Assembly (NCBI RefSeq): GCF_000341065.1
Contig: NZ_ANAX01000160.1
Span: forward strand, 1-36,410
DNA from: Nocardiopsis halotolerans DSM 44410
GTDB taxonomy: Bacteria; Actinomycetota; Actinomycetes; Streptosporangiales; Streptosporangiaceae
Length of the DNA stretch: 36,410 bases
Reading direction: 5' to 3'
Shown here: one piece after another, positions 33,956 to 36,159 of the stretch
How the letters are laid out: each line of letters starts with the position of its first letter
Position numbering within the stretch: the first letter of the stretch is position 1
The notes under the pieces: model-generated
What the model was told of the DNA's origin: nothing
What the model saw: only the letters and a program-made list of their open reading frames with translations
The model's database searches: none
Position numbers and translations under genes: made by a program

Positions 33956-34744
33956 ATGGATGATCGGACACACCTCGCGGACGTGTTGCGAGGGGTACTC
34001 GGCGCGCTGCTCGACCTGCTCCTCCCGCAGCCCTGCGCGGGGTGTGAGGGCCCCTCGGGGCCGCTGTGTACGGACTGCCTCACCGCGCTGTGGTGTCGTC
34101 CCCACCGGTGCGCGCCGCGTCCTGGCTGTCCGCCCGTCTGGGCGGCCGGTCCCTACGCCGGGCGCCACCGCGGGATCCTGCTCGCCTACAAGGAGGGCGG
34201 TGCGGACGCCCTGGCGGCGCCCCTGGGCGGTCGGCTGGCCGCCGCCTACACCGCGTCGGGCCTGGCCTCCCCGGACACCCTGCTCGTCCCCGTGCCCGGA
34301 CGCGGACCGCCGCGTGATCCCCGGGCGCCGGTCACCCGGCTGGCACGCGCCTGTCTGGCGGAGGCGGGCGGCGCGAACGCCGGAAGGGTGGCGCCGCTGC
34401 TGCGCTACCGGGGGCGCCCCCGGCGCCAGGCCGGTCTGGGACGCGCCGCACGCCTGGCCAACCGGACGGGTGTCCTCGTCGCCGACCGCGCGCCCGCGGG
34501 GGTTCCCGGCACGGCGCGCGGAGCGGCGGTCGTGGTGGACGACGTCCTCACCACGGGAGCCACGGTGGCCGAGGCGACCCGGGCGCTGAGGGCCGGTGGG
34601 TTCGGGGTGGCGGGCGCGATCGTCCTCCTGGAGAGCCTTTCCGGAGGCGCCGCCACCCGGACGGCCGGTACCGGGGCGGCGGGTGCCGGACCACCGCGCA
34701 TCAGGGTGCCGAGCCGGGCAAGAAGGTTTTACGAACCCTCCTGA
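33956..34744 (+). CDS. comFC: ComFC/GntX-like phosphoribosyltransferase-fold protein
   Basis: This 262-aa protein has an N-terminal double CxxC zinc-binding motif (QPCAGCEGPSGPLCTDCL, about 25-42). AAGPYAGRHRGILLAYKEGG follows, then the PRPP-binding loop AAVVVDDVLTTGATVAEA (about 191-208), and a C-terminus in RRFYEPS. ComFC-family proteins assist DNA uptake in competent bacteria; in actinomycetes the function is untested, and the gene is conserved between lpqB and hpf. Members usually carry R.QaGL before the PRPP loop; here RPRRQAGLGRAARLAN is present. The start is ATG 33956 with only a weak ribosome binding site. It is followed by a 746-bp noncoding region. Confidence 0.9.
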   Translation: MDDRTHLADVLRGVLGALLDLLLPQPCAGCEGPSGPLCTDCLTALWCRPHRCAPRPGCPPVWAAGPYAGRHRGILLAYKEGGADALAAPLGGRLAAAYTASGLASPDTLLVPVPGRGPPRDPRAPVTRLARACLAEAGGANAGRVAPLLRYRGRPRRQAGLGRAARLANRTGVLVADRAPAGVPGTARGAAVVVDDVLTTGATVAEATRALRAGGFGVAGAIVLLESLSGGAATRTAGTGAAGAGPPRIRVPSRARRFYEPS

Positions 34745-34779
34745 ACAGGCGAAAAGTCCACGTGCGCAAGGATTTGCGA

Positions 34780-34841
34780 CTGTTACCAACGAGTTGGGAA
34801 GGTGGTCGCCACCTGACATCCTCGCCGGGACAGGTTACGGT
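34780..34841 (+). promoter_or_regulatory. Promoter with dyad and GTTAC elements upstream of the hpf leader
   Basis: CTGACA (34813-34818), a 17-bp spacer and TACGGT (34836-34841) form one of the best vegetative promoters in the window, predicting a start near 34849. AGGTGG-TCG-CCACCT (34800-34814) is a perfect dyad abutting the -35. GTTACC lies at 34782-34787 inside the 12-mer CTGTTACCAACG (shared with the mtrA upstream region), and a second GTTAC (34834-34838) overlaps the -10. Control by MtrA is a reasonable inference. Confidence 0.6.
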
Positions 34842-34848
34842 CACGGTA

Positions 34849-35490
34849 TGGCACCCGTCCGGGTCCGTGGTTGCGTCGGAGATTGTGAGCCCCCGGGAAC
34901 ACCGGGGCGCCGCTCCGGCAAGCCGATGCCAGGCGCAGGCGAAACGGCCCACGTAAGGCGACTTTTCGTCGACCGATCACGGTGCGCCTTAGAGGTAAGT
35001 CCTGCCCCGCGGAGGGTCCAGATGTCCCTCATGACAGGGAGAAGAGCAGTAGTCGCGGACAAGAGCGGCGACACTCTCAGCAGGCGGATGTGGGGACGAA
35101 GACCAGGTCGGCCGGACGGGTGGCATCCCATCGCCCGGGGGTCCGCCAACGGCGGACTCCCGGAGACGGCTCCCTCACACCCCGCCCGTGGGGGCCGCCA
35201 CACCGCGGTCCCGAGCGGCCGGTGGGTGCCCGAGGGATGCCTTGTCCCCATCGTTCCCGACGTCCTTTCCCCCAGTTCGGCGGCTGTCGGCAATCGTGCC
35301 CGTGGGGCGCGTGATGACACCGCTGCTGGTGGGTATACGCATCTCCAACCGAGCCGTGCCTCCGACAGGACGGGGGCACCAGCGGAAGGGGGCTAGCGCG
35401 CGACACCCCTTCCGCCCCCCTGGCGGCGGAAGGGACGCAGAGCCAGCCTGGCCGTCGCCTTCACGACGGCCACGCGATGAAGGGGGTCCT
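34849..35490 (+). ncRNA. Long structured leader upstream of hpf; candidate raiA-type RNA
   Basis: About 640 nt lie between the predicted start and the hpf ATG with no credible gene. Visible structure: a 13-bp stem with AAC loop at 35135-35163 (one G-T pair); alternative small stems around CCCTC at 35028-35032, which can pair with GAGGG just upstream or with AGGGA just downstream; competing hairpins at 35382-35434; and an 8-bp hairpin at 35449-35472. Bacterial raiA RNAs are structured noncoding RNAs reported upstream of raiA/hpf in Firmicutes and Actinobacteria, often after comFC, exactly this context. I cannot match the consensus from memory, so the class assignment rests on position and structure. 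The hpf frame is open back to 35188, but without a suitable start or ribosome binding site. Confidence 0.4.
35382..35434 (+). promoter_or_regulatory. Two mutually exclusive hairpins before hpf
   Basis: CCCTTCCGCC (35407-35416) is perfectly complementary over 10 nt to GGCGGAAGGG downstream (35425-35434). The overlapping CCCCTTCCGC (35406-35415) is perfectly complementary to GCGGAAGGGG upstream (35382-35391). Only one stem can form at a time. The hpf ribosome binding site AAGGGGG (35480-35486) is also complementary to the CCCCTT part. This resembles a switching expression platform acting on hpf translation or transcript processing. No T run follows, so simple intrinsic attenuation is less likely. 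Confidence 0.5.
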
Positions 35491-36159
35491 ATGGACATCA
35501 TCGTCAAGGGTCGACGCACCGGTGTGAGTGACAAGTTCCGACAGCACGTCGACGACAAGCTCGGCAGGCTCTCCAAGTGGGAGAAGAAGGGCATGACCGT
35601 CGACGTGGAGGTGTCCAGAGAGCGCAACCCCAAGCTCGCCGACGTCTGCGAGCGGGTTGAGCTGACCATCCGGACCAACGGCCCGGTCATCCGCAGCGAG
35701 GCCGCCTCCTCCGACCGGTACGGCGCCCTCGACATGGCGGTCGACAAGATCGAGGCCCGTCTCCGTAAGGCCGCGGACCGCCGTAAGGTCCACCGCGGCA
35801 ACCACGCTCCCGTCTCCGTCTCGGCCGCGACCGCCGACCTCCCCGGAGACCTGCCCCCGGTCGCCACCGCCACGCAGGCTCCCCCGGCCCAGCGCAGCGG
35901 AGAGGAGGTGAGCGGCGGCCCCGAGACGGTTGAGAGGTTCTCCGACGAGTTCGTCGAGCTCGACACGCAAGGGGACGTCCCCGTCATCGTCAGGGAGAAG
36001 TTCCACAGGGCCAAGCCCATGAGCATCGACCAGGCGCTGATGGAGATGGAACTCGTGGGCCACGACTTCTACCTCTTCCACGACGAGGTCAAGGACGCCC
36101 CGAGCGTCGTCTACCGGCGCAAGGGCTTCAACTACGGAGTCCTCCGGCTCGTCGACTAG
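35491..36159 (+). CDS. hpf: Long-form ribosome hibernation promoting factor (HPF/RaiA)
   Basis: This 222-aa protein inactivates ribosomes in stationary phase or stress by dimerising 70S into 100S particles. The N-terminal ribosome-binding domain (1 to about 105) starts MDIIVKGRRTGVSDKFRQHV and includes KLGRLSKWEKKG and DMAVDKIEARLRKAADRRK. A variable linker (about 110-160) is followed by the C-terminal dimerisation domain (VIVREKFHRAKPMSIDQALMEMELVGHDFYLFHD, then VVYRRKGFNYGVLRLVD), which defines the long form. ATG 35491 follows AAGGGGG (35480-35486) and an 8-bp hairpin (35449-35472). In relatives secA follows; the window ends before it. Confidence 0.96.
   Translation: MDIIVKGRRTGVSDKFRQHVDDKLGRLSKWEKKGMTVDVEVSRERNPKLADVCERVELTIRTNGPVIRSEAASSDRYGALDMAVDKIEARLRKAADRRKVHRGNHAPVSVSAATADLPGDLPPVATATQAPPAQRSGEEVSGGPETVERFSDEFVELDTQGDVPVIVREKFHRAKPMSIDQALMEMELVGHDFYLFHDEVKDAPSVVYRRKGFNYGVLRLVD

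Follow-up and report, generated by a model that had tools for sequence, protein, structure and literature searches.

The 746-bp gap between a comFC-like gene and hpf in Nocardiopsis halotolerans DSM 44410 contains a raiA RNA, and this RNA is very probably the product of a free-standing noncoding RNA gene that acts in trans, with hpf forming a separate unit. The gap lies in a 36,410-nt stretch of DNA (the window), to which all coordinates refer; all features described are on the forward (+) strand except the spacer, to which no strand was assigned. Three features of raiA favor the free RNA: a dedicated promoter, a hairpin at the 3' end, and the 370 nt that separate it from hpf. Within those 370 nt, hpf has a conserved promoter of its own, which favors this reading further. 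The earlier note, made from the letters of the sequence, had left three possibilities for the region: a free RNA, an hpf leader, or both. The first of these was strengthened by the dedicated hpf promoter, and the leader reading was not upheld.

The limits that had been proposed for the gap (34745-35490) were bracketed exactly by the ends of two open reading frames, a comFC-like phosphoribosyltransferase ORF upstream (33956-34744) and hpf downstream (35491-36159). The latter encodes a long ribosome hibernation promoting factor; PF02482 and PF16321 scored above their cut-offs, and both the Ribosomal_S30AE and S30AE_C domains are present. The upstream ORF was matched weakly by Pribosyltran (22.4 bits, under the cut-off of 26.3), so the name “comFC-like” rests partly on its location beside lpqB and raiA. 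The usual neighbors of raiA (comFC upstream and raiA/hpf downstream) were therefore found here, the former as this weakly matched ORF; according to figures quoted in PMC11706538, comFC is located upstream in 74% of cases and raiA/hpf downstream in 66%.

From the position of the gap, a raiA noncoding RNA had been guessed, and a covariance-model search had been suggested. An Rfam covariance-model scan identified raiA RNA (RF03072) at 34854-35120, with a score of 141.6 bits (E = 3.1e-35; gathering score, 101.3 bits) over the full length of the model (positions 1-209). The element is a raiA RNA and a secure addition to a known RNA family. It was the sole above-threshold Rfam match in the whole window, and the 6.26-Mb assembly has a single copy. 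Two other matches were rejected: 6C RNA (RF01066) at 35136-35203 scored 23.9 bits against a gathering score of 47, and a mir-1281 match downstream was also sub-threshold. raiA was found in all 40 genomes of the genus, in 195 of 201 from the family, and in 76 of the 297 in the class sample. Its length in the genus is 265-268 nt, and the majority of alignment columns are invariant. Some members of the class (L061-L064 and L070) featured a strong raiA match but no hpf match within 1.5 kb downstream.

Comparative folding, which had also been proposed, was carried out on an alignment of 62 diverse actinomycete raiA sequences, for which RNAalifold returned a structure of 73 pairs. Two-sided compensatory changes were present at 27 of these pairs, and 98.6% of cells were paired; the structure was derived from the same 62 sequences, which favors the paired percentage and, to a lesser degree, the two-sided changes. 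None of 500 shuffles reached any observed measure, and sliding the pairing partners by 1-3 columns lowered the paired cells to 28-45%. Covariation was thus well above both the shuffled and the slid controls, and it was strong in the P1 helix and in an extra hairpin at 34876-34918 (stem TCGGAG/CTCCGG, inner CCCCGG/CCGGGG). This actinomycete hairpin occupies the model's first variable stretch; all six of its alignment pairs had two-sided changes, and 89.7% of its cells were paired. It is probably the optional P2. A 7-bp helix formed by AGGCGCA (34931-34937) and TGCGCCT (34983-34989) was paired in 100% of cells in the 62 sequences, with one pair changed from C-G to G-C in 11 of them. Its length and place fit pk-1, which comprises seven consecutive pairs in the cryo-EM structure from C. 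acetobutylicum (PMC11751092); this mapping is our own, and the helix is best termed pk-1-like. The single-sequence fold of 34848-35165 had a z of -2.80.

These data also bear on whether the gap is mainly coding, i.e. whether it specifies a short unannotated protein. Two open frames, of 266 aa (+) and 159 aa (-), run through the gap, and one frame of raiA stays open in all 40 genus members; the latter is uninformative, because the DNA is GC-rich and the sequence is nearly invariant. The compensatory base pairing accounts for the changes observed, and the lengths of raiA among relatives differ by non-multiples of three. A coding role for the gap is therefore considered extremely improbable.

The promoter that had been placed at 34813-34841 was borne out by conservation. 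It consists of CTGACA (34813-34818), a 17-nt spacer, and TACGGT (34836-34841), and a promoter-type element with the same spacing was present in all 40 genus members and in 14 of 15 sister-clade loci. In most of the family the -10 element is TAGCGT, and the spacer was 17 nt wherever the element was found. A generic promoter-consensus scan did not flag 34813-34841, so the support for this promoter is its conservation, not the scan. The sequence suggests a sigma-70 (housekeeping) type. The motif AUGGCA (34848-34853) begins 7 nt past the -10 element in near-invariant columns; it would include the transcription start (at about 34848) and the 5' end of an extended P1, and the alignment of 62 sequences pairs positions 34852-34853 with the 3' side. 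A dyad had been noted ahead of the promoter. The repeat GGTGGTCGCCACC is indeed present at 34801-34813, but it is perfect in only 1 of 40 genus members; it was consequently rejected as an operator, and it probably arose by chance.

Upstream of hpf, a second promoter-type element was found at 35311-35336, composed of GTGATG (35311-35316), a 14-nt spacer, and GGGTAT (35331-35336). Among the 40 genus members, the -35 element was GTGATG in 33, GTGAGG in six, and GTGAGT in one, and the -10 element was GGGTAT in all; the location of the element is conserved as well. For comparisons beyond the genus, a clade was defined as the 55 loci with an hpf at least 64% identical to that of the window (L071, at 64.2%, was counted inside). 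GGGTAT was located within the raiA-hpf gap in all 55 clade loci; it was found in none of the 80 loci outside the clade, in which both the gap and raiA itself were searched. The element has the features used to designate the SigB type (a GGGTAT -10, a G-led -35 at 12-14 nt, and conservation), with a looser -35 beyond the genus, and it may be read by a SigB homologue. A genome search for further GTGA-N15-17-GGGTAT sites yielded 10, compared to one in the control. In a 70-row tree of HPF proteins, rooted at the midpoint, the hpf promoter fit a single change with a support of 100/100, and its gain in the window's clade is likelier.

The leader that would begin at this promoter has conserved features of its own. 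A Shine-Dalgarno-like purine box, GGAAGGGGG (35384-35392), is not followed by a start codon; 54 of 55 clade loci have at least 8 consecutive purines in the corresponding part of the leader. A hairpin directly ahead of the ribosome-binding site (35449-35472) was also found in 54 of 55 loci, with 24 distinct stems across the clade; the half-swap control for this hairpin was moderate, as 56 of 272 swaps scored equally well. The ribosome-binding site itself is GAAGGGGG (35479-35486), and AAGGGGG is invariant in the genus alignment. In the window and its close relatives, three arms in 35380-35438 (GCGGAAGGGG, CCCCTTCCGC, and GGCGGAAGG) could form two mutually exclusive hairpins. This three-armed switch was rejected and is not claimed, because the RNAalifold consensus of 40 leaders contained only one two-sided pair.

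Between raiA and the hpf promoter are a hairpin and a poorly conserved spacer (35165-35308) that has few conserved columns in the genus alignment. The 13-bp stem noted previously at 35135-35163 proved exact, and a strong hairpin begins 6-18 nt past the end of raiA in all 40 genus members (median, -31.7 kcal/mol). The stems differ widely; because of their differing sizes a MAFFT alignment was unusable, and the hairpins were compared by single folds. The mean z in the genus was -3.05 at the hairpin window vs. -0.19 in the spacer. When hairpin halves were swapped across species, the mean energy rose from -34.8 to -28.4 kcal/mol, and 8.5% of the swaps matched the mean. Such hairpins are less regular beyond the genus (mean z of -0.86 in 15 sister-clade loci). 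The GC-rich hairpin in the window is a putative U-less terminator or 3' stabilizer. No U-tract follows 35135-35163 and the terminator scan found no terminator; termination here is thus proposed for a hairpin lacking that tract, and read-through from raiA into hpf could occur. On this basis, a discrete raiA RNA could coexist with some read-through into a long hpf 5' UTR, the SigB-type promoter adding stress induction. The closeness of raiA and hpf in relatives is consistent with this arrangement, as are the short and long isoforms of ModT, the raiA RNA of C. difficile, the longer of which ends at a downstream terminator (PMC11706538). Set against it is the dedicated hpf promoter element, kept in every clade locus, and we regard the combination as a rather doubtful, if real, possibility.

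The separation of the two genes was found to differ sharply between the clade and its relatives. The raiA-hpf distance is 122-501 nt in the clade (median, 366), compared to 30-340 nt outside it (median, 54), where it is mostly 30-200 nt and at least 250 nt in one locus. Gaps of 340 nt (L096) and 157-220 nt (L039, L044, L058, L059, L124, and L128) outside the clade were devoid of GGGTAY. In 44 of the 80 outside relatives, raiA is located no more than 60 nt ahead of hpf with no GGGTAY element between, so raiA is probably within the hpf 5' UTR in these loci, and a cis role could persist there. This close spacing is the type of evidence expected if raiA were a cis-acting, riboswitch-like leader that senses a signal and controls hpf read-through or translation. 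The strand and order of the two genes, which are the same in all clade loci and in most relatives, are in keeping with such a leader, and Rfam classes RF03072 as cis-regulatory/riboswitch. In the clade, however, raiA and hpf are kept apart by a long spacer that lacks conservation and by a promoter dedicated to hpf, to which the genus adds the hairpin. These intervening elements are not what an expression platform for hpf would present, and a non-exhaustive search turned up no conserved structure in which raiA would instead pair with the hpf ribosome-binding site. Published gene neighbors also vary; modT in C. difficile is not followed by raiA/hpf (PMC11706538). Further, PMC11751092, which reports the raiA structure, cites the missing expression platform as an argument against a riboswitch. 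A cis-acting leader is accordingly judged unlikely in the window. raiA is conserved both at 30-60 nt from hpf and at 300-500 nt from it behind a terminator-like hairpin; this conservation despite separation is an argument for a function other than the control of hpf.

Under the free-standing reading, the region would comprise two adjacent transcription units, raiA (ModT) and then hpf. Transcription of raiA would begin at about 34848 from the housekeeping-type promoter, the RNA would adopt the raiA fold with its pseudoknot (34854-35120), and the transcript would stop at or just past the hairpin at 35135-35163. hpf would be transcribed from the SigB-type promoter, with a 5' UTR of about 150 nt as a separate leader, and could in this way be induced separately under stress. 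raiA is accordingly most likely a stable structured RNA that functions in trans, as in clostridia, and not a switch for hpf.

The upstream regions of raiA in the relatives were also searched for BldD boxes (consensus TNAC-N5-GTNA; PMC4151990). A box starting 74-77 nt ahead of raiA was present in 45 of 59 family loci outside the clade (e.g. L036, L047, and L050) vs. 0.4 expected, although these relatives are non-independent samples; the box lies about 62-65 bp before the putative start site. No box was found upstream of raiA in the 40 genus, 15 sister, or 21 other-class loci. As a positive control, the same search located a box upstream of bldD in 46 of 46 genomes (1.5 expected); bldD was identified by PF21179, having been sought beside efp/nusB and not found there. 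A different regulator with a similar site is a possible source of these boxes. We tentatively propose, at a little under even confidence, that BldD, the master regulator of development activated by c-di-GMP, directly targets raiA in many actinomycetes of the family, and that the box was lost from, or never present in, the window's clade, whose SigB-type promoter and long spacer would free hpf from raiA.

In clostridia, raiA is very abundant, at levels reported to rival rRNA (PMC11706538), and ModT is a very abundant RNA in C. difficile. The reported clostridial effects concern c-di-GMP, sporulation, and the passage of cells into stationary phase (PMC11706538), and ModT affects the first two of these in C. 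difficile. PMC11706538 and PMC11751092 describe an abundant discrete transcript in clostridia, the loss of which affects sporulation or aggregation. If the BldD proposal is correct, raiA/ModT, c-di-GMP, and sporulation would be linked in a second phylum. raiA is widespread and its structure has been solved, and the RNA in the window, taken by itself, is ordinary. Its comparison with relatives opens the cis/trans and actinomycete c-di-GMP questions to testing, as a single family offers a natural experiment: raiA is near hpf in most genera and promoter-separated in one clade, and the RNA is conserved.

The raiA of the window shares with known raiA/ModT RNAs (RF03072) a full-length model match, a comFC-like upstream and an hpf downstream neighbor, P1, the 7-bp pk-1-like helix, and an invariant core. 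It departs from them in its extra covarying hairpin, in its length (267 nt, compared to 209 model positions), and in its separation from hpf, as the 3' hairpin, the spacer, and the SigB-type promoter lie between the two. The hpf element GTGATG-N14-GGGTAT has the same spacing and -10 type as SigB-type promoters of S. coelicolor, such as SCO7446p (GTGATG-N14-GGGTAG; PMC8346170). The exact BldD consensus precedes raiA in relatives, whereas the window's clade is without it (0 of 55 loci).
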